Assembly (NCBI RefSeq): GCF_000631985.1
Contig: NZ_JFYN01000042.1
Location: 186,001-250,000, forward strand
Reading direction: 5' to 3'
DNA: 64,000 bases
Origin: Pseudomonas sp. RIT288
GTDB lineage: Bacteria > Pseudomonadota > Gammaproteobacteria > Pseudomonadales > Pseudomonadaceae
The first letter of the stretch is position 1; every line of letters begins with the position of its first letter. The notes under the pieces were generated by a model. That model was given only the letters and a program-made list of their open reading frames with translations. It ran no database searches and was not told where the DNA came from. A program made the translations under genes and the position numbers. This document shows positions 6,688-57,982 of the stretch, one piece after another.

Positions 6688-7647
6688 CTACCCCAACAGC
6701 GCAATCAACTGATGCCGCTGCGCATCGGTGAGCATCGGCCCGAACCCGGCGCCCGCGTTGTCGGCCATGTAGCGCGGATTGCCGGTGCCGGGAATCACGC
6801 AGGTCACCGCCGGGTGCGACAGCAGGAACTTCAGCGCCAGTCGCGGCCAGCTGTTGACCTGCACGTCCGAGACCCAGGCCGGCAACGGCTTGCCCTTGAG
6901 TCGGGCGAGCAAGTCGCCGCCACCGAACGGCCGATTGCAGATCACCGCCACCCCGCGTTCGCGGCACAACGGCAGAATGCGTTTCTCCACGCCACGGTCA
7001 TCGAGGGCGTAGTTGATTTGCAAAAAATCCAGTTGTTCGGCCTTGAGCACTGCTTCGACTTCTTCATAGGCCGAAGGCGTGTAATGGGTGATGCCGATGT
7101 AGCGGATGCGTCCCTGTTCTTTCCATTCGCGCAGGGTCGGCAGATGGGTTTGCCAGTCCAGCAGGTTATGGATCTGCATCAGGTCGATGCGTTCGGTGCG
7201 CAGCAGACGGAAGGATTGCTCCATCTGCGCGATACCCTCCTCGCGCCCTCGCGTCCAGACCTTGGTCGCCAGAAACGCAGGTGAGCGCGGTTCGTGGATC
7301 GCCAGCAACTCGCCAGTGGTTTGCTCGGCGCGGCCATACATCGGCGAGCTGTCGATCAGCGTGCCGCCCTTCCTGAATAGCTCGTCGAGCACCGCTGGCA
7401 GTTGTTTATACGCGGTTTGATCGGGCGCAACGTCGAAACCGCGATAGGTGCCCAGGCCCACCATCGGCAGCGGCTCGGAGCTGGAAGGGATGGCGCGGGT
7501 CTGCATGGTCTGGTCTCCTGCCTGGCTCGGCGAAGTGGCAGTCGGCGTGATGGCAGTGGCCAACGCCCGGTCAAAGCTCAGGACCGCCGAAACCCCGGCA
7601 GCCAGCGTGAGCAATCGGCGACGGGAGCAACCCTCAGTGTGGCTCAT
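6688..7647 (-). CDS. Aldo/keto reductase with an N-terminal Tat-like signal
   Basis: A 319-residue protein. Residues 1-30 contain CSRRRLLTLAAGVSAVLS, a twin-arginine-type signal, followed by an AKR barrel. The AKR tetrad can be traced: D in GTLIDSSPMYG, Y in MYGRAE, K in FLATKVWTRG and H in LMQIHN. AKRs bind NADPH and reduce carbonyls in the cytoplasm as a rule, so an exported AKR is notable. The start at 7647 is used because it begins the signal; the frame is open to 7797, but that would overlap the divergent hydrolase. Confidence 0.85.
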   Translation of the reverse strand: MSHTEGCSRRRLLTLAAGVSAVLSFDRALATAITPTATSPSQAGDQTMQTRAIPSSSEPLPMVGLGTYRGFDVAPDQTAYKQLPAVLDELFRKGGTLIDSSPMYGRAEQTTGELLAIHEPRSPAFLATKVWTRGREEGIAQMEQSFRLLRTERIDLMQIHNLLDWQTHLPTLREWKEQGRIRYIGITHYTPSAYEEVEAVLKAEQLDFLQINYALDDRGVEKRILPLCRERGVAVICNRPFGGGDLLARLKGKPLPAWVSDVQVNSWPRLALKFLLSHPAVTCVIPGTGNPRYMADNAGAGFGPMLTDAQRHQLIALLG

Positions 7648-47793: not shown

Positions 47794-47872
47794 GTTACAC
47801 AGGGCTCTAACGTTACTTAAACGCTGAATCGCTACCGCTAAAAATTCACTAGACATGTAACCTGAGTTACAT
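47794..47872. promoter_or_regulatory. GTTAC/GTAAC repeats and dyad ATGTAAC-CTGA-GTTACAT
   Basis: A perfect 7-bp inverted repeat with a 4-bp spacer is at 47855-47872. A palindromic TAACGTTA is at 47808-47815, and another GTTAC at 47794-47798. The direct GTTAC copies start at 47794, 47812 and 47866, i.e. 18 and 54 bp apart, an 18-bp periodicity. They lie between the cobF/phosphatase unit and the RpiR gene and are operator candidates, perhaps for the adjacent RpiR-type regulator. Confidence 0.45.
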
Positions 47873-47934
47873 AAATACTGTTTTAACGGATTATGAAACG
47901 AATTCAACACCCCCTTCATCCAGCAGGAGCCCGG

Positions 47935-48789
47935 ATGCCGCCTCTCAGAGACTTGATCACCGATCCCGGCCTGGAGCTGACGCCTTCTGAGCGCAAAGTG
48001 ATTCGCGCCCTGCTCGACCAGTATCCGCGCAACGGCCTGGGTCCGATGGCGCGTCTGGCCGAACACGCTGGCGTCAGCGATCCGACCATCGTGCGGCTGG
48101 TGAAGAAGCTCGGATTCGGCGGTTATGCCGAGTTTCAGGACGCCCTGCTCAGCGACATGGATCACCGCCTGCGTTCGCCGCGCACCCTGTTGCAGCCCCG
48201 TTCGCACCTGAACAAGGATGATGCCTGGGGCCATTATCTGGCTGACAGCCAACGCCTGCTGGTGGAAACCCAGGTCCTGACGCAACCTGAAGACGTGCGC
48301 ATTCTGCTCGACTGGCTGCTCGATACCCGGCACCAGATCTACTGCTTCGGCGGGCGCTTCAGTAGCCTGATGGCCAACTACCTGCTCAATCACTTGCGCC
48401 TGCTGCGACCCGGCTGCTTTGCCCTGGAAGACAATGCGCAACTGCCCGATCGCCTGTTCGATCTGCAACGTCAGGACGTAGTGCTGCTGTTTGACTATCG
48501 GCGCTACCAGTCCCAGGCCCTGCGGGTTGCCTCGGCAGCGAAGAACAACAACGCGCGGGTGGTGTTGTTCACCGACATCTATGCCTCGCCGCTGCGCGAA
48601 CTGGCTGACCTGATCATCAGTGCTCCGGTGGAATCGGCCTCGCCGTTCGACACCATGGTGCCGGCGCTGGCCCAGGTCGAGGCGCTCATTGCCTGCCTGA
48701 CCCTGCGCAGCCCCGATCTGGCCGATCGCCTGGAAGGCATCGACGCCCTGCGCAACGACTTCAACACCCATCTGCTGGAGGATAAATAA
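47935..48789 (+). CDS. RpiR/MurR-family transcriptional regulator
   Basis: A 284-residue regulator. The N-terminal RpiR helix-turn-helix reads LTPSERKVIRALLDQYPRNGLGPMARLAEHAGVSDPTIVRLVKKLGFGGYAEFQ; a C-terminal SIS sugar-isomerase-like domain follows (IYCFGGRFSSLMANYLLNHL, VVLLFDYRRYQSQALRVASAAKNN). SIS domains usually sense phosphosugars, but in Pseudomonas such regulators also control amine catabolism. It heads a co-oriented cluster to 56225, only 2 bp from the next gene. ATG 47935 is chosen for its GCAGGAG site; 47893 is in frame but lacks one. Confidence 0.87.
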   Translation: MPPLRDLITDPGLELTPSERKVIRALLDQYPRNGLGPMARLAEHAGVSDPTIVRLVKKLGFGGYAEFQDALLSDMDHRLRSPRTLLQPRSHLNKDDAWGHYLADSQRLLVETQVLTQPEDVRILLDWLLDTRHQIYCFGGRFSSLMANYLLNHLRLLRPGCFALEDNAQLPDRLFDLQRQDVVLLFDYRRYQSQALRVASAAKNNNARVVLFTDIYASPLRELADLIISAPVESASPFDTMVPALAQVEALIACLTLRSPDLADRLEGIDALRNDFNTHLLEDK

Positions 48790-48791
48790 GG

Positions 48792-49436
48792 ATGTTCAGT
48801 CTTCCCCACCGCTCGCCACGGGATTTGCCGTTTGTCACCGGTCACACCGCGTTGCTGCTGGTGGACATGCAGCGTGCCTGGCTCGAACCGCAGTTCGATC
48901 CGCACCTGAACGGGCCTGATGCCGAGTACTTCCTGACCCGCGCGCACATGCAGGTGGTGCCCAACCAGCGCCGTTTGCTGAGTGCCTTTCGCGAAACACG
49001 GCAGAACGTGCTGCACACGATTATCGAAAGCCTGACCGCCGACGGTCGCGACCGCTCGCTGGATCACAAACTGTCGGACATGCACCTGCCCAAGGGCAGT
49101 CAACAGGCGCGGATCATCGACGACCTGACCCCGGTGGAAAACGAAATCGTGTTGCCGAAAACCTCGTCCGGGGTGTTCAACTCGACCAACATCGATTACG
49201 TGCTGCGCAATCTCGAAACCCGCCACCTGATCATCGCCGGCATCGTCACCGACCAGTGCGTCGACATGGCCGTGCGGGATGCCGCCGACCGCGGTTATCT
49301 GGTGACACTGGTCGAAGACGCCTGCGCCACTTACACCCCGGCGCGGCATGACGCCTGCCTCAACGCGATCAAGGGCTACTGCTGGATCAGCGACACGCAA
49401 ACCGTGCTCGGCCGCTTGCAGGAGATGCGTCCATGA
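48792..49436 (+). CDS. Isochorismatase-like cysteine hydrolase
   Basis: A 214-residue hydrolase with the D25-K123-C156 triad (LLLVDMQRAW, LPKTSSGVFN, TDQCVDMA). The family includes nicotinamidases, ureido- and carbamoyl-amide hydrolases and biuret hydrolase, all cleaving C-N bonds of small amides. The position between the regulator and a gamma-glutamyl ligase-like enzyme suggests it removes an amide or ureido group from the pathway substrate. The next gene overlaps by 4 bp (ATGA). Confidence 0.87.
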   Translation: MFSLPHRSPRDLPFVTGHTALLLVDMQRAWLEPQFDPHLNGPDAEYFLTRAHMQVVPNQRRLLSAFRETRQNVLHTIIESLTADGRDRSLDHKLSDMHLPKGSQQARIIDDLTPVENEIVLPKTSSGVFNSTNIDYVLRNLETRHLIIAGIVTDQCVDMAVRDAADRGYLVTLVEDACATYTPARHDACLNAIKGYCWISDTQTVLGRLQEMRP

Positions 49437-50764
49437 GCGAGCGCCTGACGCCGTTGCCGATGACCACCATCGTCACCACTGACCTGATCGGTATCACCCG
49501 TGGCCGTTCGTTTCCCACCGATCAGCTGGAGCACTATCAAGCTGCCGGTTGCGGCTGGGTGCCGGCCAACAGCGCGTTGACCCCGCAGGACATCATCGCC
49601 CAGACCAACCCGTGGGGTGCTTATGGCGATTTGCGGCTGATCCCTGATCTGGCCAGTCGCGTCACCGTCGGTAATGGCCCGGATGCCGCAGCACCGGCGC
49701 TGGACTTCATCCATGGTGACATCCGCGAGACCGATGGCCGCCCATGGAGCACCTGCCCACGCACCTTGTTGCGCGATGAAATCGAGCGCTATCGCGACGA
49801 CCTCGGTTTGCAGGTCAACGCGGCGTTCGAACACGAATTCAACCTGCATGCCGGTTTTGCCGAGCATCTGGCGTTTTCCCTCGAAGCCCAGCGTCAGGCG
49901 GCCGAGTTCGGCGGCTGGCTGCTCAGCGCGCTGCGCGCGGGGGGTGTCGAGCCGGAAATGTTCCTGCCCGAATACGGCAAGCACCAATACGAAATCACCT
50001 GCCGGCCGACCCTCGGCGTGGCGGCGGCGGATCGCGCGGTCAACGTGCGCGAGATCACCCGCGAAATCGCCCGGCAAATGGGCGTCGACGTCAGCTTCGC
50101 GCCGAAAACCAAGGCCGACGCGGTGTGCAATGGTGTGCACCTGCACGTCAGCCTGCTCGACCTGCAAGGTCTGCCGCTGCTGTACGACGCCGGCACCAGC
50201 AACGGTCTGTCGACCCTCGGCCAGCATTGGGCCGCAGGGATCCTGCATTACCTGCCGGCGCTGTGCGCGTTCACCGCGCCGACGCCGGTGTCGTACGAGC
50301 GTTTGCAGCCGCACCACTGGAGCGCGTCCTACGCGTGTCTGGGGCAGCAGAACCGTGAAGCGGCGCTGCGCATCTGTCCGACCGTGAGCCTGGGCGGCAA
50401 ATCCGTGGCGGCGCAGTACAACCTCGAATTCCGCGCCATGGACGCCACCGCCTCGCCGCATCTGGCGATGGCCGCACTGCTGATCGCCGGACGGCTGGGT
50501 ATCGAGCAGCGTCTGGCGCTGAACGCGATCACCGATGAAATTCCCGATTCACTCAACGACGAGCAACGCAAGGCCCGGGGCATTGTGGCCCTGCCCGCCT
50601 CGCTGGCCCAGGCGCTGGATTGCCTGCGTGACAGTGCAGCCTTCAATCAATGGCTGCCCAAGCCGTTGCTCGACACTTACCACGCCCTTAAAACCGAGGA
50701 ACTGGCGCTGACGGAACAGCTCTCGCCCGCTGACCTGTGTGAGCACTATGCACGCCTGTACTGA
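49433..50764 (+). CDS. Glutamine-synthetase-family ligase (gamma-glutamylpolyamine/amine synthetase-like)
   Basis: A 443-residue protein of the glutamine synthetase fold. Visible blocks are EHEFNLHAGF, the metal-binding EYGKHQYEITCRPTLG, a CNGVHLHVSLLD loop with the metal histidine, and AAQYNLEFRAMDATASPHLAMAAL near the C-terminus. Several differ from canonical GlnA (for example the adenylylation region), as in PuuA- and GlnA3-type ligases that glutamylate amines. I infer ATP-dependent gamma-glutamylation of an amine. Start and stop overlap both neighbours. Confidence 0.85.
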   Translation: MSERLTPLPMTTIVTTDLIGITRGRSFPTDQLEHYQAAGCGWVPANSALTPQDIIAQTNPWGAYGDLRLIPDLASRVTVGNGPDAAAPALDFIHGDIRETDGRPWSTCPRTLLRDEIERYRDDLGLQVNAAFEHEFNLHAGFAEHLAFSLEAQRQAAEFGGWLLSALRAGGVEPEMFLPEYGKHQYEITCRPTLGVAAADRAVNVREITREIARQMGVDVSFAPKTKADAVCNGVHLHVSLLDLQGLPLLYDAGTSNGLSTLGQHWAAGILHYLPALCAFTAPTPVSYERLQPHHWSASYACLGQQNREAALRICPTVSLGGKSVAAQYNLEFRAMDATASPHLAMAALLIAGRLGIEQRLALNAITDEIPDSLNDEQRKARGIVALPASLAQALDCLRDSAAFNQWLPKPLLDTYHALKTEELALTEQLSPADLCEHYARLY

Positions 50765-51500
50765 ATCCGCCGAGCTGGGGTTGTACACCCGCCCGGTCTA
50801 CAACCTGAGCCGCGAAGATTCATCGCATCCGTTGATCCTGGTGTGCGAGCACGCCAGCCGCTACATTCCCGAGGCCCTGAACAATCTGGGCCTGGACGAT
50901 GCAGCCGCGAGCGAGCACATCGCCTGGGACATCGGCGCACTGCAACTGGCTGAAAAGCTCTCGGAGAAACTCGGCGCGACACTGTTGAGCGCCAACTATT
51001 CACGGTTGCTGATCGACCTCAATCGGCCCCGGCATGCCCCCGACAGCATTCCGGCGCAGAGCGAGATTTATCAGGTGCCGGGTAACCGCGAACTGGACGA
51101 AGCCACTCGCGAGTACCGGCGCCAGACCCTGTTCAAACCGTTTCACGCACGGCTGCAGACCCTGATCGACCAGCGCGTTGCACAAGGCCAGGCAGTACGA
51201 GTGGTCGGGATTCACAGTTTTACCCCGGTCTATTACGGCCAGCCGCGCCCACTGGAAGTCGGCGTGCTGTTTGGTCAGGCCAAAACGTACGCGCAGCGGG
51301 TGATCGACGGCCTCGGCCAGCACCCGCTGAAAGTCGCCGGCAACCAGCCGTACCGGGTTGATCCGCTGGGCGACATGACGGTGCCGGTGCATGGCGATGC
51401 CCGAGGACTGGAATCGGTGTTGATCGAGGTGCGCAACGATCTGCTTTACAGCCCCGAAGCGGTATCAATGTGGGCCGAGCGCCTGGCGCCACTGCTGTAA
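50748..51500 (+). CDS. N-formylglutamate amidohydrolase-family protein
   Basis: A 250-residue zinc amidohydrolase. The motif LILVCEHASRYIPEAL, then SRLLIDLNRPRHAPDSIP and VVGIHSFTPVY, and a C-terminal LESVLIEVRNDLLYS are those of the HutG-like family, which cleaves N-acylated amino acids. This copy lies within a glutamyl-ligase cluster, away from hut genes, and may act on a different N-acyl or gamma-glutamyl product. ATG 50748 overlaps the GS-like gene; a GTG at 50739 is the alternative. Confidence 0.86.
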   Translation: MHACTESAELGLYTRPVYNLSREDSSHPLILVCEHASRYIPEALNNLGLDDAAASEHIAWDIGALQLAEKLSEKLGATLLSANYSRLLIDLNRPRHAPDSIPAQSEIYQVPGNRELDEATREYRRQTLFKPFHARLQTLIDQRVAQGQAVRVVGIHSFTPVYYGQPRPLEVGVLFGQAKTYAQRVIDGLGQHPLKVAGNQPYRVDPLGDMTVPVHGDARGLESVLIEVRNDLLYSPEAVSMWAERLAPLL

Positions 51501-51588
51501 CCCATGCGGCAGAGACTGCTGACGCTGTAAACGATGGACCGATATAACAACTAAAAACGCTGGATAGGCTGACAAGGAGTTGCGCTTC

Positions 51589-52938
51589 ATGGAAATAGAA
51601 GAGTTCGGCTACAAACAAGAGTTGAAACGTAGCCTGACACTGACCGACCTGGTGGTGTACGGGATGATCTTCATGATCCCCATCGCCCCGTTTGGCGTGT
51701 ATGGCTACGTGAATGCCGAGGCGCCCGGGATGGTGCCGCTGGCCTATATCATCGGCATGGTGGCGATGCTGTTCACCGCGCTGAGCTACGGCAGCATGGC
51801 CAAGGCGTTTCCGATCGCAGGCTCGGTGTATTCCTACGCGCAACGCGGCCTCAATCAACACGTCGGCTTCATCGCCGGCTGGCTGATGCTGCTCGACTAC
51901 CTGCTGATTCCACCGCTGCTGTACGTCTACGCGGCGATGGCTCTGAACCATTTGTACCCGGACATTCCGAAGGTCGGCTTCATTCTGGCGTTCCTGGTCA
52001 GCGCAACGTTCGTCAACCTGCGCGGGATCACCTTCACCGCACGGATGAACATCGTTTTCCTCTTGGCACAGCTGGTGGTACTGGGCATCTTCCTGTTCTA
52101 CGCCTGGAACGCCCTGCACAACGGCGGCGGCAACGGCGAGCTGACGCTGGCGCCGCTGTATCACCCGGAAACGTTCAACTTCGTCCTGCTGATGCAAGCC
52201 GTGTCGATTGCCGTGCTGTCGTTCCTTGGCTTCGATGCGATCTCGACCCTCGCCGAAGAAATCAAAGGCGATCCGGGCCGCAGCGTTGGCCGCGCAGCGC
52301 TGATCACTCTGGTGGTGATGGGCGTGATTTTCGTCGTGCAGACCTGGATCGCTACCGATCTGGCCGCCGGCATGGGCTTCAAGTCCGCCGACACCGCGTT
52401 CTATGAAATCGCCGAAATCGCCGCTGGCAGCTGGCTGGCCACACTGACCGGTGTCGCCACGGCGCTGGCCTGGGGCGTCGCGGTAGCGATCACCTCGCAA
52501 GCCGCGGTGTCGCGTCTGCTGTTCGGCATGGCCCGCGATGGCAAGTTGCCGAAAGTGCTGGCCAAGGTGCACCCGAAGCACAACACGCCGTACCTGAGCA
52601 TTTATCTGGTGGCGGTGCTGTCGCTGGTGATCTGCTACCTGTTCATCAATTCGGTCGACACCCTGACCTCGCTGGTCAACTTCGGTGCCCTCAGCGGTTT
52701 CATGCTGCTGCACCTGACAGTGATCAACTATTACTGGCGCCGGCAGAAGTCAGGTCAGGTGGTGCGCCATCTGATCTGTCCGGTGATCGGCTTCATCATC
52801 GTCGCCGCCATCATGTACAACATGGGCGTCGATGCGCAGAAACTCGGCCTGATCTGGATCGCGCTGGGTCTGGTGTACCTGTTCTTCCTGAACAAGCTCG
52901 GCGCCAGCACCGCGCTGCCTGATCCGAGCAATGGCTGA
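51589..52938 (+). CDS. APC-family amino acid/amine permease
   Basis: A 449-residue transporter with twelve predicted transmembrane segments. LTLTDLVVYGMIFMIPIAPFGVYG (TM1) and SFLGFDAISTLAEEI (TM6 region) match the APC superfamily; the PuuP-like amine importers have comparable blocks. It would supply the cluster's substrate. The ATG at 51589 follows AAGGAG. A hairpin follows the stop, which may separate the distal genes. Confidence 0.86.
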   Translation: MEIEEFGYKQELKRSLTLTDLVVYGMIFMIPIAPFGVYGYVNAEAPGMVPLAYIIGMVAMLFTALSYGSMAKAFPIAGSVYSYAQRGLNQHVGFIAGWLMLLDYLLIPPLLYVYAAMALNHLYPDIPKVGFILAFLVSATFVNLRGITFTARMNIVFLLAQLVVLGIFLFYAWNALHNGGGNGELTLAPLYHPETFNFVLLMQAVSIAVLSFLGFDAISTLAEEIKGDPGRSVGRAALITLVVMGVIFVVQTWIATDLAAGMGFKSADTAFYEIAEIAAGSWLATLTGVATALAWGVAVAITSQAAVSRLLFGMARDGKLPKVLAKVHPKHNTPYLSIYLVAVLSLVICYLFINSVDTLTSLVNFGALSGFMLLHLTVINYYWRRQKSGQVVRHLICPVIGFIIVAAIMYNMGVDAQKLGLIWIALGLVYLFFLNKLGASTALPDPSNG

Positions 52939-52948
52939 CAAGAAAAAG

Positions 52949-52986
52949 AGCGGCGTCTGACAAAAAATCAGGCGACCGCCGCTTTA
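52949..52986. terminator. Possible terminator after the permease gene
   Basis: AGCGGCG (52949-52955) pairs with CGCCGCT (52977-52983), with a nested CTGA/TCAG stem inside. It is followed by only TT, so it is weak or an attenuator. Confidence 0.45.
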
Positions 52987-53057
52987 AAGCGTGGCAACCG
53001 ACAGTGATAGTCAGGTTCGGTGAGGATCACCGGACCCTTTGATACAGGAGTGCATCC

Positions 53058-54074
53058 ATGCTGGTCTTACGCCCAGTCGAGCCAACCGACCTGCCGCAAT
53101 TGCAGCAACTGGCCCGCGACAGTCTGGTCGGCGTTACGTCGCTGCCGGACGACAGCGATCGCCTGCGCGAAAAAATTGCCGGCTCCTGCGCCTCGTTCGC
53201 CAGCGACATTCAGGCGCAAGGCCCGGAGAACTATTTCTTCGTGCTGGAAGACCTCGACACTCAGCGGCTGGTCGGCTGTTCGGAAATCCTTGCCACTGCC
53301 GGTTTCAACGAACCGTTCTACAGCCTGCGCAACCGCCACTTCACCAGTGCCTCGCGGGAATTGAACATCGAACACGGGGTGCCGGCGCTGTCGCTGTGTC
53401 ACGACCTCAACGACCACACCCTGCTGCGCGGTTTTCACATCGACAACGCGCTGGTGCGCAGCGCCTTTTCCGAATTGCTGTCACGGGCGCGACTGCTGTT
53501 CATCGCCGCTCACGCACAACGCTTTGCCGATGCGGTGATCACCGAAATCGTCGGTTACAGCGACGAGAACGGTCACTCGCCGTTTTGGGATGCGCTGGGC
53601 AAACATTTCTTCGACCTGCCCTACGTCGAGGCTGAGCGCCTGTGCGGCCTGCAGAGCCGCACGTTCCTCGCCGAACTGATGCCGCAATACCCGATTTACG
53701 TACCGATGCTGCCTCCGGCGGCGCAGGCATGCATCGGCCGGATTCACCCGGACGGCCAGGAAGCGTTCGACATCCTCGAACGCGAAGGCTTTGAAACCAA
53801 CAGCTACATCGACCTGTTCGACGCCGGTCCGACCCTGTATGCGCGCACCGCGAACATCCGTTCGATCGCCCGCAGCCAGACCGCCAGCGTGCGCGAGCAG
53901 GCACAGATCGACGCCCGCGGCCATTACCTGCTGAGCAACGACGCCCTGCACGGCTTCCGGGCCATCGTCGCCCAACTGGATTACCAGCCAGATCAACCGC
54001 TGTCGCTGACGCCGGCCCTGTGCGCGGCGCTGAAGGTTTCCGATGGCAGCACGGTCAGGCTGACAGCCCTGTGA
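53058..54074 (+). CDS. Arginine N-succinyltransferase-like protein, AruF type
   Basis: A 338-residue GNAT-like subunit of the AstA family: MLVLRPVEPTDLPQLQQLA, PENYFFVLEDLDTQRLVG, NGHSPFWDALGKHFFDLPY, FLAELMPQYPIYVPMLPPAAQ and FETNSYIDLFDAGPTL. In the AST pathway AruF and AruG form a heteromer that succinylates arginine/ornithine. Here only the AruF/AruG pair occurs, with no aruC, aruD, aruB or aruE beside it. It stands in a cluster for amide and glutamyl chemistry. The gene starts 120 bp after the permease. Its genuine substrate may differ from arginine. Confidence 0.85.
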   Translation: MLVLRPVEPTDLPQLQQLARDSLVGVTSLPDDSDRLREKIAGSCASFASDIQAQGPENYFFVLEDLDTQRLVGCSEILATAGFNEPFYSLRNRHFTSASRELNIEHGVPALSLCHDLNDHTLLRGFHIDNALVRSAFSELLSRARLLFIAAHAQRFADAVITEIVGYSDENGHSPFWDALGKHFFDLPYVEAERLCGLQSRTFLAELMPQYPIYVPMLPPAAQACIGRIHPDGQEAFDILEREGFETNSYIDLFDAGPTLYARTANIRSIARSQTASVREQAQIDARGHYLLSNDALHGFRAIVAQLDYQPDQPLSLTPALCAALKVSDGSTVRLTAL

Positions 54075-54135
54075 ACCGCGCCCGGTTGCATACCCAACGA
54101 CAGTGCCCGAACAGGCGCGTACAAGGAGTTACCGC

Positions 54136-55170
54136 ATGATCGTCCGTCCGGTCAAAGTCAGCGACCTGCCAGCGCTGATGACCCTGGTGCAACAGGCCGG
54201 CCCGGGGTTCACCACCCTGCCGGCCAATGAGGATCGCCTCGCCCACCGGGTGCGCTGGGCTCAGCGCGCGTTCGCCGAACAGGTGGAACGGGCCGACGCC
54301 GATTATCTGTTCGTGCTCGAAGACGACGACCTGCGGGTGGTCGGCGTCAGTGCCCTGACCGGCGCGGTGGGCCTGCGCGAGCCGTGGTACAACTATCGGG
54401 TCGGTCTGACCGTGAGTTCGTCGCCGGATCTGGGCATTTCGCGGCAGATCCCCACACTGTTTCTCAACAATGAACTGACCGGCCAGTCGGAACTGTGTTC
54501 GCTGTTCCTGCATCCGCAACACCGCCAAGGCAGCAATGGTCGGCTCCTGTCGCTAGGGCGCCTGCTGTTCGTGGCCGAATTTCCGCAGCTGTTTGGCGAA
54601 AAGATGATCGCCGAACTGCGTGGCAGTGCCGATGAACTCGGCTGCTCGCCGTTCTGGGACAGCCTGGGCCGACACTTTTTCAAGATGGACTTCAGCCACG
54701 CCGACCACTTGTCGGGTCTGGGCAACAAGTCGTTCATCGCCGAACTGATGCCGCGCCAGCCGTTATATACCTGCATGCTCACCGAGCAGGCGCAGGCCGT
54801 CATCGGCCAGCCGCATCCCAACACCGAACCGGCGCTGAAGATTCTGCGCGAAGAAGGCTTCACGCATAAGGGCTACATCGACATCTTCGACGGCGGCCCG
54901 GTGATCGAAGCACCGATCGGCAACATTCGTACCGTGCGCGACAGCCTCGCGTTGACCCTGAGCCTCGGCACACCGGACGATCAGGCCCCGTTATGGCTGA
55001 TCCACAACCGTCGCCTGGAGAACTGCCGCATCACCGTCGCCCCCGGTCGTCTGGTCGGCAATAGCCTGGTGGTCGATCGCCTCACCGCCAAGCGCTTGCA
55101 GTTGCAACCAGGCAATTCGGTACGCGCGGTGCTGCTGCCCAGGCAACAGCAACAGGCGGTAGCCGCCTGA
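54136..55170 (+). CDS. Arginine N-succinyltransferase-like protein, AruG type
   Basis: A 344-residue partner of the preceding protein, homologous to it along the length (MIVRPVKVSDLPALMTLV; YLFVLEDDDLRVVGVSAL; LGCSPFWDSLGRHFFKMDF; SFIAELMPRQPLY; THKGYIDIFDGGPVIEA). The SELCSLFLHPQHRQGSNGRLLSLGRLLFVAEF block is the acyl-CoA-binding region. The two proteins should form a heteromer as AruFG. The ATG at 54136 follows ACAAGGAGTTACC. After it the sequence leads 185 bp to an independent decarboxylase-type gene. Confidence 0.86.
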   Translation: MIVRPVKVSDLPALMTLVQQAGPGFTTLPANEDRLAHRVRWAQRAFAEQVERADADYLFVLEDDDLRVVGVSALTGAVGLREPWYNYRVGLTVSSSPDLGISRQIPTLFLNNELTGQSELCSLFLHPQHRQGSNGRLLSLGRLLFVAEFPQLFGEKMIAELRGSADELGCSPFWDSLGRHFFKMDFSHADHLSGLGNKSFIAELMPRQPLYTCMLTEQAQAVIGQPHPNTEPALKILREEGFTHKGYIDIFDGGPVIEAPIGNIRTVRDSLALTLSLGTPDDQAPLWLIHNRRLENCRITVAPGRLVGNSLVVDRLTAKRLQLQPGNSVRAVLLPRQQQQAVAA

Positions 55171-55355
55171 TCTGCGGTTTTGCCACTGAAAATCCGCTGA
55201 CTGCAGATGAAACCTTTCAGCCGCTGGATCCGTCATCAACGCCCCGCTCGCAAATTCGTCATGAACCTTGACCCATTCGCGTGATAGCCTTTTCATTCTT
55301 CGGCGTTGACACCTTTGCTCAAGCCGTTCCATTCCTTTGTATTGGTGGAACTCGT

Positions 55356-56225
55356 ATGACCAGGCTTTCCCATCAAGATTTGCGCCGTAACTTCCGTCAA
55401 TTGCTGGCTTCCGACACCTGCTACCACACCGCCTCGGTGTTCGACCCAATGTCCGCACGCATTGCCGCAGACCTGGGTTTTGAAGTGGGGATCCTCGGCG
55501 GCTCCGTGGCCTCGTTGCAGGTGCTGGGCGCTCCCGACTTTGCCCTGATCACCCTCAGCGAGTTCGCCGAACAGGCCACCCGCATTGGCCGCGTCGCCCA
55601 ATTGCCAGTGATCGCCGACGCCGACCACGGCTACGGCAACGCCCTCAACGTGATGCGCACCATCGTCGAACTGGAACGCGCCGGCGTTGCCGCCCTGACC
55701 ATTGAAGACACCCTGCTGCCAGCGCAGTTCGGCCGTAAATCCACCGACCTGATCTCGGTCGCCGAAGGCGTCGGCAAGATCCGCGCGGCGCTGGAAGCCC
55801 GAGTCGATTCGGAAATGGCAATCATCGCCCGCACCAACGCCGGGATCCTGCCGATTCAGGAAATCATCAGCCGCACCAAGCAATACCAGGCCGCCGGTGC
55901 CGACGGCATCTGTATGGTCGGGGTGCAGGACTTCGATCAGCTTGAGCAAATTGCCGAGCATCTGAGCGTGCCGCTGATGCTGGTCACCTATGGCAATCCG
56001 GCGCTGCGCGACGACAAACGCCTGGCCGAACTCGGCGTGCGCGTGACCATCGACGGCCACGGTGCGTACTTCGCGGCGATCAAGGCCACCTACGACAGCC
56101 TGCGCGAACAACGCCAGATCTTCACCCAGGCCTCGGACCTGAGCGCCACCGAGCTGACGCACACCTATACCCAACCTGAGGATTACATTCTCTGGGCGAA
56201 GGAATACATGAGCGTAAAGGAGTGA
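55356..56225 (+). CDS. Oxaloacetate decarboxylase-like (isocitrate lyase/PEP mutase superfamily)
   Basis: A 289-residue barrel enzyme of the isocitrate-lyase/PEP-mutase superfamily: [83 protein letters not shown]. The pattern matches PA4872-type oxaloacetate decarboxylases, with the metal-binding ADADHGYG. It removes CO2 from oxaloacetate or a related 2-oxo acid. The start at 55356 follows GGTGGAA. It follows the succinyltransferase pair, possibly the end of the same cluster. Confidence 0.87.
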
Positions 56226-56553: not shown

Positions 56554-56637
56554 ATGATAAAAAACCTGCTCAACCCAGACTTGAAGCCTGACCAGCTTAT
56601 ACCTGCATCAAGACAACAAACATGGGGAACGAAGTAA
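56554..56637 (+). CDS. 27-codon reading frame, probably the displaced 5' end of the next gene
   Basis: ATG 56554 to TAA 56635-56637, encoding a peptide that begins MIKNLLNPDLKPDQL and ends SRQQTWGTK. It overlaps the next frame by 16 bp. Adding one G to the run GGGG at 56624-56627 would fuse the frames into ...SRQQTWGNEVKNLVDQL..., a smooth sequence. I therefore suspect a frameshift rather than a separate peptide, but a genuine small gene is possible; the ribosome-binding site is weak. Confidence 0.45.
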   Translation: MIKNLLNPDLKPDQLIPASRQQTWGTK

Positions 56638-57326
56638 AGAATCTGGTCGACCAGTTATCCGAACCTAAAGCAGATACCGAGAATGTGTCCCGTCACGCCG
56701 CGATCATGCAAGCGACGAACATCCACACCGGAACGCTGACGTTATATTGCAACAAAGATGGAAACATCAGCCTCAAGACACCTGATAACGCACCCGCGCC
56801 TGAGCAGCTATATTCCGTTCCCGGAAACAGCGTTTTGTTCGCCATCAACGGGCAAGCGTATTCCATTCAGCTTTATCGACTCGACGGTGAATATCTGACG
56901 CGCGCAGAGCAGGTGATCGTGGATGCCGAAAATCCGTTGTTCATCGACGGCAGCAAAACCCTGTACGACAGCAATCCCGAGGGCAACGGGCACCCGGCGT
57001 TTATTGGCAGCATCAATCTGCCCGACAGAACTGCCGACATCAGTGTGTTCGCCCCCCACTCGTTGCGCAAAATCGGCTGGTTCCCTCATGACGACAGCGC
57101 CGCGCGCTGTCTGGTGAGTCTTGAACTGCTCGACGCAGCACAGGACCCCGGAGCCTGCAAAGTGGCGCAGGAATTGATTTATCACTATCACCCCGCTGTC
57201 GCCTGGCGGGCCTTTCAGATGATCAACAGAACGGATCGTCAGGCCGCACTAAGTTGCGTCCCGCTGTTGAGAAACTTGCAAGACAGTCGCCTGAACTACT
57301 TACTCGACCAGTGTGAAGCGGCATGA
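56622..57326 (+). CDS. Unrecognised protein, first gene of a peptide-associated cassette (5' end possibly frameshifted)
   Basis: A 234-residue protein from ATG 56622, which has no ribosome-binding site. I do not recognise it. The middle is beta-rich (GTLTLYCNKDGNISLKTP, SVLFAINGQAYSIQLYRLDG, DISVFAPHSLRKIGWFPHDDSAARCLVSLELL), with cupin-like spacing. The C-terminal 60 residues are helical (CKVAQELIYHYHPAVAWRAFQMINR, then LLRNLQDSRLNYLLDQCEAA), like a HEAT-type helical cap. The next gene overlaps by 4 bp. G+C content is lower than the surroundings. If the upstream 27 codons belong to it, the full protein is about 257 residues. Confidence 0.65.
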   Translation: MGNEVKNLVDQLSEPKADTENVSRHAAIMQATNIHTGTLTLYCNKDGNISLKTPDNAPAPEQLYSVPGNSVLFAINGQAYSIQLYRLDGEYLTRAEQVIVDAENPLFIDGSKTLYDSNPEGNGHPAFIGSINLPDRTADISVFAPHSLRKIGWFPHDDSAARCLVSLELLDAAQDPGACKVAQELIYHYHPAVAWRAFQMINRTDRQAALSCVPLLRNLQDSRLNYLLDQCEAA

Positions 57327-57982
57327 AATTACAGACATTTATCGAGCGCATGACGACTTACGATCTGCAACTGGACAGTTCAAGGATCGTGGAAGATCTG
57401 CGTCAACTCGCGACTAACCGCACGTTGTTGAGCGAGTACCTCTACACCACGATTCAACAGGACGGTTTCAGTACCAAAAACAGGCTTTACGGGGCCTACG
57501 CATTTGTCCTGCACTCCAACGATCTGTTTACCGTTCGCCTGGGTTTCTGGTCGCCGGTCACGTCACGGGATGAAAGGGAAACCTTTATCTATGACCTCAA
57601 CCACAGTCATGACTTCGAACTCTATTGCGTGGGTTACAGCGGTGATGGTTACACCACTGTTTCACGGGAGATTCTGGATCAAGCACCGCTACAGGCTGGC
57701 AGAAGGCCCGAGTTCGGCGAAGAACGAGTCCTTAAACTTATTCCGGGTGAGGTGCTGCACATGCTTCCACTAAAGGAAGTACACAAACAGCTACCACCTG
57801 AAACAATGTCCGCCTCGCTGAGTTTGCTTATTCATCCTCCGCAGGCAGCCAAAACCGAAGAAGCCTGGTGCTTCGACGACAATCTCGTGCCGACTTATCC
57901 CGGCATCGCCCGCCAGGAGACAGCGCTCTATGACAGCCTGCTGTCCCGGCTACAACGTGAGCAGACTTCACTGCTCACTTAA
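57323..57982 (+). CDS. Unrecognised protein with a His-rich cupin-like core
   Basis: A 219-residue protein; start overlaps the preceding stop (ATGA). Residues 93-110 read NHSHDFELYCVGYSGDGY; further histidines H146, H154 and H171 follow in LHMLPLKEVHKQLPP and IHPP. An HxH pair plus downstream histidines at this spacing resembles a cupin or 2-oxoglutarate-oxygenase-like metal site, but I cannot name a family. The N-terminal 50 residues are helical. It lies 17 bp before the 58-residue peptide gene and is probably functionally tied to it. Confidence 0.65.
   Translation: MKLQTFIERMTTYDLQLDSSRIVEDLRQLATNRTLLSEYLYTTIQQDGFSTKNRLYGAYAFVLHSNDLFTVRLGFWSPVTSRDERETFIYDLNHSHDFELYCVGYSGDGYTTVSREILDQAPLQAGRRPEFGEERVLKLIPGEVLHMLPLKEVHKQLPPETMSASLSLLIHPPQAAKTEEAWCFDDNLVPTYPGIARQETALYDSLLSRLQREQTSLLT

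Follow-up and report, generated by a model that had tools for sequence, protein, structure and literature searches.

A duplicated AruFG pair behind a conserved RNA leader in an RpiR-led, putative amine-utilisation locus of Pseudomonas

Does a run of eight same-strand catabolic genes in the soil bacterium Pseudomonas sp. RIT288 encode one pathway, or have separate functions come to lie behind one regulator? The genes occupy positions 47935-56225 of a 64,000-nt stretch of contig NZ_JFYN01000042.1, referred to here as the window, and comprise a five-gene module headed by an RpiR-family regulator and including a gamma-glutamyl ligase, a second copy of the AruFG succinyltransferase subunit genes (F2 and G2), preceded by a structured RNA leader, and a lyase gene. 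An earlier note on this DNA had read them as a single uncharted route of import, acylation and deacylation. The reading that we favour, with moderate confidence, is that an RpiR-repressed amine operon has been extended by a translationally gated succinyltransferase of shifted specificity, which would feed the standard enzymes of the arginine succinyltransferase (AST) pathway. Family-profile searches confirmed the eight genes, all on the + strand, in the places and families that the note had assigned to them:

47935..48789, + strand: RpiR-family regulator with HTH_6 and SIS domains; a longer open reading frame starts at 47893
48792..49436, + strand: cysteine hydrolase (CysH) of the isochorismatase family, with candidate D/K/C motifs
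49433..50764, + strand: gamma-glutamyl organic-amide ligase, glutamine synthetase (GS)-like; full-length homologue of PA5508/PauA7 (PDB 4hpp), 638 bits
50748..51500 (ATG at 50748), + strand: amidohydrolase of the N-formylglutamate amidohydrolase (FGase) family, PF05013; aligns with Atu2144 (2odf)
51589..52938, + strand: APC-family permease, by family-profile match
53058..54074, + strand: F2, AruF-like (alpha) subunit, duplicated and diverged; aligns with AruF (1yle), 428 bits
54136..55170, + strand: G2, AruG-like (beta) subunit of the AstA family, duplicated and diverged
55356..56225, + strand: lyase like PA4872-type oxaloacetate decarboxylase (phosphoenolpyruvate mutase/isocitrate lyase type); 3b8i, 469 bits, residues 2-290

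Comparison with related loci separates these genes into units. Among 80 F2 loci, which are the best 80 of 189 relatives and the set for which the following shares are valid, F2 and G2 occur together in every one; the module (RpiR, CysH, ligase, FGase and APC) is complete in 59, absent from 20 and reduced to RpiR alone in one (L050). The joint presence of module and pair in 59 of 80 loci is a degree of conservation far above chance, and the closest F2 contexts, in P. parakoreensis and P. koreensis, carry an F2 of 96% identity, which makes P. koreensis a probable near relative. In the 21 genomes without a full module, the ligase was not found elsewhere at an E-value of 1e-120 (0/21), the same query giving matches in 5 of 29 genomes. 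All 21 incomplete loci retain RpiR-derived DNA between cobC and F2, with no matches in shuffled gaps; in 20 of them the remnant is the 5′ part of the gene, which L050 retains entire, and L051 has no more than 42 bp from its interior. The module was therefore lost by deletion at these loci; a recent insertion of the module beside F2 is ruled out as an explanation for the 21 incomplete ones. At L050, RpiR and the first CysH codons run straight into the F2 leader. An apparent trace of the 3′ end of APC in the alignment of some loci without the module is given no weight here, the comparison having listed one best match per locus, which was RpiR. Another stage of module loss is seen at L245 (genome G371, position 7638), where FGase is the sole module gene left upstream of F2.

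The module also occurs without the pair. The ligase was found in 20 of 148 sampled genomes of the family, five from the same genus and 15 from two other genera, and F2 matches were limited to those five. Eleven of the 15 ligase loci outside the genus were fetched, all from Pseudomonadaceae: ten hold all five module genes in order, one lacks an APC match, and none has F2-G2 (0/11). Within the genus, 199 genomes were searched for the leader with a covariance model under the stricter filters of Infernal, with which weak leaders can be lost; ligase and F2 leader were both found in 44 genomes, the ligase alone in three, the leader alone in 14 and neither in 138. A distance of 2.3-3.6 kb on one contig separates ligase and leader in 43 of the 44, and G388 has them on different contigs. 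The association is strong yet confounded by descent. Four genomes (G225, G280, G294 and G388) carry a more diverged ligase of 70-76% identity, with the leader unmatched or on another contig.

These distributions bear on the possibility of one integrated pathway, in which import, glutamylation and deacylation would be followed by succinylation of the product by F2-G2. The tight packing described in the earlier note would fit such a pathway and was borne out for the first four genes (a gap of 2 bp between RpiR and CysH, and overlaps of 4 bp between CysH and ligase and of 17 bp between ligase and FGase), the remaining gaps being 88 bp (FGase-APC), 119 bp (APC-F2), 61 bp (F2-G2) and 185 bp (G2-lyase). 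A single promoter, and the presence of the leader in 44 of the 47 genus genomes that have the ligase, nearly always close to it, speak for it as well. We nevertheless consider it quite unlikely, given that the module lacks F2-G2 in other genera, that three genus genomes have the ligase and no leader (subject to the filters mentioned) and 14 of the 199 the leader and no ligase, that F2-G2 stands alone, with no module, in 20 of 80 loci, and that the pair is under purifying selection in a genome set that includes the module-less G002. A single pathway for all eight genes was set aside as the principal interpretation because module, pair and lyase occur apart.

The lyase is similar to 3b8i over its full length, as expected of a PA4872-type oxaloacetate decarboxylase. 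It is present in 79 of the 80 F2 loci, the exception (L057) being a sequence that stops about 1.3 kb after F2; no lyase match was found in the 5-8 kb fetched downstream of G2 in three diverged relatives (L145, L239 and L247). It is a separable neighbour. The import-acylate-deacylate route of the earlier note thus finds no support, its parts being found as module without AruFG, as AruFG without module, and as AruFG without a downstream lyase in those three relatives. Just beyond the lyase, at 56622-57982 on the + strand and behind a gap of 42% GC, lie two adjacent uncharacterised genes of 234 and 219 aa, with a GC content of 53.6% against 62% for the cluster. They gave no Pfam match over cut-off, none in NCBIfam at 0.001 and none in PADLOC at 0.1. 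In 5 of the 80 loci their homologues separate G2 from the lyase, in 2 they follow the lyase, and several diverged relatives have them as well.

What, then, is the succinyltransferase pair? The genome has four AstA-family genes, and the second pair, F1-G1, is part of a complete aruC-F-G-D-B-E operon, located on contig C12, in which every gene scores above the NCBIfam cut-off for its role. The observation that aruCGDBE is absent downstream of F2-G2 is thus correct for this locus and does not extend to the genome, and the label "orphan" for the pair is wrong at genome level because a complete AST operon is present. In a quick tree (100 of 271 distinct rows) F2 and G2 are the sisters of Pseudomonas AruF and AruG, respectively, so that the pair was probably duplicated as a unit. 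F2 scores 425.2 bits against the equivalog model of the arginine/ornithine succinyltransferase alpha subunit (TIGR03245), below its cut-off of 458.8, with 552.8 for F1 of the same genome; G2 scores 444.2 bits against the AstA/AruG equivalog (TIGR03244), above the cut-off of 391, with 521.8 for G1. Thirty-five columns are conserved in 95% or more of the remaining family members; F2 retains every one of them, and G2 has 34 of them in at least 98% of rows and the last (S107) in 54%. The ratio of nonsynonymous to synonymous substitution rates (dN/dS), over ten pairs from five genomes with the module-less G002 among them, is 0.08-0.21 for F2 and 0.06-0.18 for G2, compared with 0.005-0.03 for F1 and 0.02-0.04 for G1. 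These values point to F2 and G2 as working genes under weaker constraint than F1 and G1. Between F1 and F2, 33 differences are fixed, 13 of them within residues 97-128. We infer from these sequence comparisons that succinyl transfer is kept and that acceptor preference has shifted.

The pair might instead be an ordinary second arginine/ornithine succinyltransferase, a dosage or regulatory paralogue of unchanged specificity under another promoter. The retention of the family-conserved positions, the score of G2 above the AstA cut-off and the availability of the downstream enzymes in trans are all compatible with this; the score of F2 below the alpha cut-off, the clustering of fixed differences in residues 97-128 and dN/dS values several times those of F1 and G1 argue against it, and we regard it as unlikely. 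The distribution of an ArgR-like pattern, with two copies before aruC of the C12 operon and none in 47935-56225, also speaks against it. F2-G2 thus shares family and pair architecture with the AST pathway (aruCFGDBE), and differs from it in the lack of aruCDBE at the locus, in the score of F2 and in the restriction of the ArgR-like pattern to the aru operon.

Other duplicates of the AstA family are known. In the literature on a second AruFG copy, PMC9007349 alone was relevant; it describes an AruG beside a putative citrullinase, CtlX, at a Pseudomonas locus of its own. We observed such an arrangement in L161-L163, also from Pseudomonas, where a CtlX-like gene is immediately followed by a single AruG-like gene, CtlX being confirmed by its equivalog in L161. 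The small regulator before the CtlX-like gene in L161 and L163 presumably belongs with Lrp. Like F2-G2, the CtlX-AruG citrulline locus holds a duplicated AstA-family protein apart from the aru operon, but its features (a lone AruG, CtlX and, in L161/L163, the Lrp-like regulator) are all absent from the window locus. A citrulline locus of the CtlX type was ruled out here, the single PF02274 gene of the genome being on another contig (C12) and PF19420 giving no match. In G024 and G268, which belong to a different family within the order, there is a second AstA pair, one member of which is strongly diverged, and it does not share a contig with the first; independent duplications of the AstA pair may be common. 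In L066 (5639-9429, on a contig of a metagenome-assembled genome) the F2 and G2 matches are separated by 428 bp rather than about 60, so that G2 may be truncated or broken there.

Two elements upstream of RpiR bear on how the pair is transcribed:

47850..47879, + strand: sigma-70-like promoter TAGACA-18 bp-AATACT, from a pattern scan and conservation
47855..47872, no strand assigned: inverted repeat ATGTAAC-N4-GTTACAT in the promoter spacer, candidate RpiR operator

The promoter scan alone is at chance level, with three such sites in 9.3 kb against 2.4 in shuffles. The promoter is kept in all 80 F2 loci under a relaxed pattern; the strict pattern matched 43 of the 59 module-bearing loci and missed 16. 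The inverted repeat is the sole match in the window to a pattern with a chance expectation of 0.02, a pattern written from the site and its relatives. Complementarity of its arms, out of seven positions, is 5-7 (mean 6.07) in the 59 module-bearing loci, 2-6 (mean 3.3) in the 20 module-less loci and 6 in L050, which still has RpiR. The simplest reading is that RpiR would bind the inverted repeat, that F2-G2 would be transcribed from 47850-47879, and that the promoter stays for F2-G2 after RpiR and the module are lost. Promoter retention in 80 of 80 loci backs common transcription. The earlier note is supported in that this is one RpiR-led, same-strand locus with an amine-type gamma-glutamyl ligase and a non-canonical AruFG pair.

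The pair also has a conserved element of its own:

52988..53066, + strand: structured RNA leader of F2, 79 nt, with an outer stem GCGUGGA/UCCAUGC (P0) holding the AUG, P1 (GAC/GUC), a covarying hairpin (P2) and the Shine-Dalgarno sequence inside
52955..52990 (approximate), + strand: another inverted repeat on the 5′ side of the leader, retained whether or not the module is present

The leader consists, in order, of GCGUGG, GACAGUGAU, the hairpin, the Shine-Dalgarno sequence and UCCAUGC, and runs through the F2 start codon. Its GCGTGG...GACAGTGAT block is near-invariant in sequence, and G[CT]GTGG is present in all 84 leaders compared (72 distinct). Leaders were more like that of the window than the fourfold-degenerate sites of F2 were in 75 of 75 comparisons (means 0.86 and 0.66), five of the 80 loci having been dropped for unequal F2 match length. 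Alignments were made of 56 chosen leaders and of 71 of the 72 distinct ones (L145 omitted). In P2, among 53 sequences, seven of nine pairs show changes on both sides, with 57 such cells against 16.4 after shuffling and none of 500 shuffles as high; in a MAFFT alignment of the 56 that was not fitted to the structure, both-side changes are seen in five of nine pairs. When the partners are slid, the share of paired cells over the entire structure falls from 95.5% to 28-41%, in an alignment fitted to that structure. P2 loop length varies among leaders. Pairing holds in 97.6% of P0 cells and in 100% of P1 cells, and neither stem covaries. In the inverted repeat upstream, four of nine pairs are changed on both sides, with a covariation term of just -0.09 kcal/mol.

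The covariance model of the leader found exactly one site in each of 58 of the 199 genus genomes, directly before F2 in all 47 checked of these 58, those of the window, G010 and G002 included. Among 59 genus genomes, 22 carry four or more AstA copies; the leader is present in 21 of the 22. In a search of 59 chosen source stretches, six without a match serve as negative controls, the leader being absent from the control stretches with an aru operon (L090), with CtlX-AruG loci (L161/L163) and with the module only (L150-L152). In the RIT288 genome itself, the covariance model returned the F2 copy alone; a 19-base search allowing up to three mismatches gave four further matches, one with a single mismatch on contig C9 and three with three mismatches. 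Judged by eye, the match on C9 is antisense in a gene that we take to resemble rpsA. Rfam gave no match at the gathering score in the whole window, and two sub-threshold matches at chance level in 52800-53200. A leader of this gene was not found in the literature, including PMC3933690, as far as the accessible parts of these sources go. The novel part of the locus is the leader RNA; the genes are all of known kinds.

A structured leader was weighed against a protein operator next to an ordinary hairpin, either a weak terminator or a stabiliser, with no regulatory RNA at all. Near-invariance of the GCGTGG...GACAGTGAT block would also be expected of a protein site, and the absence of covariation in P0 and P1 fits as well. 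A protein site is harder to reconcile with P2, which changes both arms yet stays paired while its loop length varies, and with conservation that continues through the Shine-Dalgarno sequence and the AUG; a terminator is disfavoured by the run of just 3-4 T after the stem in most leaders, and by a terminator scan that listed nothing there. Retention of the leader where the upstream operon is deleted also argues against this alternative. We think it rather improbable. It is tempting to go further and to speculate that the leader represents an undescribed class of translational riboswitch, binding the amino acid or amine acylated by AruF2G2 (arginine-, ornithine- or guanidino-like) and thereby freeing the AUG from the GCGUGGA/UCCAUGC stem; we put this forward tentatively, as a doubtful but attractive possibility. 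If true, the identity of the substrate could be read from the RNA, for a succinyltransferase whose specificity would be new.

Several observations weigh against the reading of an RpiR-repressed operon with a gated succinyltransferase. No covariation backs the outer stem that would hide the AUG, its sequence being nearly constant, and a few diverged leaders have this stem broken or weakened: L242, L244 and L249 depart from G[CT]GTGG or its first base. The number of P2 pairs with both-side changes was reached in 19 of 500 shuffles. Single-sequence folding z-scores are weak (-1.9 to +0.3), and with folding energies unremarkable it is conservation and covariation that carry the case for the leader. 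The preceding 114 nt, in most of the loci compared taking in the end of APC, average 0.82 against 0.86 for the leader, so that conservation extends further upstream. G006, a genome with five AstA-family genes, among them the canonical pair and a CtlX-linked copy, has no leader match, nor has it a ligase match. Shared transcription is deduced from promoter retention; the inverted repeat between APC and F2 could, as a hairpin, act as a terminator, and there may be a second promoter. Finally, the co-occurrence of ligase and leader could reflect a closer metabolic tie than the one proposed here.

The substrate of the module may be approached through its ligase, which carries the GS catalytic and N-terminal domains (PF00120 and PF16952) and has PA5508 as its best PDB match. 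The nearest NCBIfam model is gamma-glutamylputrescine synthetase (NF045547), with 256.6 bits, short of the cut-off of 650; the GlnA profile gives 162 bits (cut-off 429). The ligase is of the gamma-glutamyl organic-amide type (PuuA/PauA/GoaS), as judged by these profiles, and nearer to amine ligases than to GlnA. The FGase gene reaches 41.6 bits against the HutG deformylase model TIGR02017 (cut-off 278.75), and belongs to the broad FGase family alone. For CysH, we assume that the D/K/C motifs carry the meaning usual for them. The ATG at 47935, with AGGAG in front and retained among relatives, is most likely the true RpiR start.

In gene order the module presumably equals PA5506-PA5510 of P. aeruginosa. 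The ligase is homologous to PA5508 over its full length, and the five-gene order is also kept in another genus; an aruFG pair, present at the window locus, is missing from all 11 module loci that were obtained from outside the genus. PA5508 glutamylates amines, according to PMC6478659 and PMC11335346, the former stating, with reference to Ladner 2012, that bulky amines such as catecholamines are favoured over linear polyamines. A table in the P. aeruginosa Crc regulon mapping paper (PMC6235884) includes PA5508 and PA5510, which fits a catabolic role. According to PMC6246594, PA5506-PA5509 are overexpressed together in strains that carry a plasmid; PA5510 is described as an amino acid/polyamine permease (PMC9397018) or named as an APC transporter and nothing more (PMC2542419). 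A comparable combination of GS-like ligase and FGase-family hydrolase occurs in the GlnA4 ethanolamine route of Streptomyces, where, according to PMC6529630, the hydrolase has been suggested to liberate the glutamate of the gamma-glutamyl product and two dehydrogenases are encoded alongside. The module here has no oxidase or dehydrogenase, so that any oxidation would come from enzymes encoded elsewhere.

Taken together, these findings lead us to propose a composite locus for amine/amino-acid utilisation, belonging to the Pseudomonas fluorescens complex. Transcription would start from the promoter at 47850-47879 and be repressed by RpiR on ATGTAAC-N4-GTTACAT. The APC permease would import a bulky amine or amino acid, which the GoaS-type ligase would gamma-glutamylate at the cost of ATP, like its homologue PA5508; FGase and CysH would hydrolyse amide or carbamoyl bonds of later intermediates, with the oxidation steps supplied in trans. 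On the same transcript, the duplicated AruFG succinyltransferase F2-G2 would be gated separately at translation by a folded leader able to hide the AUG, a leader for which conservation and one hairpin are observed, and would succinylate an arginine- or ornithine-like amino acid with shifted preference, the product being processed by AruB/C/D/E from the aru operon elsewhere. There would thus be two enzyme units behind one promoter, a private RNA gate on the second, and a lyase that is a mere neighbour.

For annotators, this corrects the single-pathway interpretation as well as the designation of the pair as an orphan. For the biology of the genus, the locus would illustrate how a core catabolic pair can be duplicated, placed behind an RpiR promoter and provided with an RNA leader of its own. 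That leader offers a direct handle on the substrate, since the leader signal can be screened in vitro, and if it proves to be an amino-acid-sensing translational switch, it would constitute a new RNA class in a well-studied genus.

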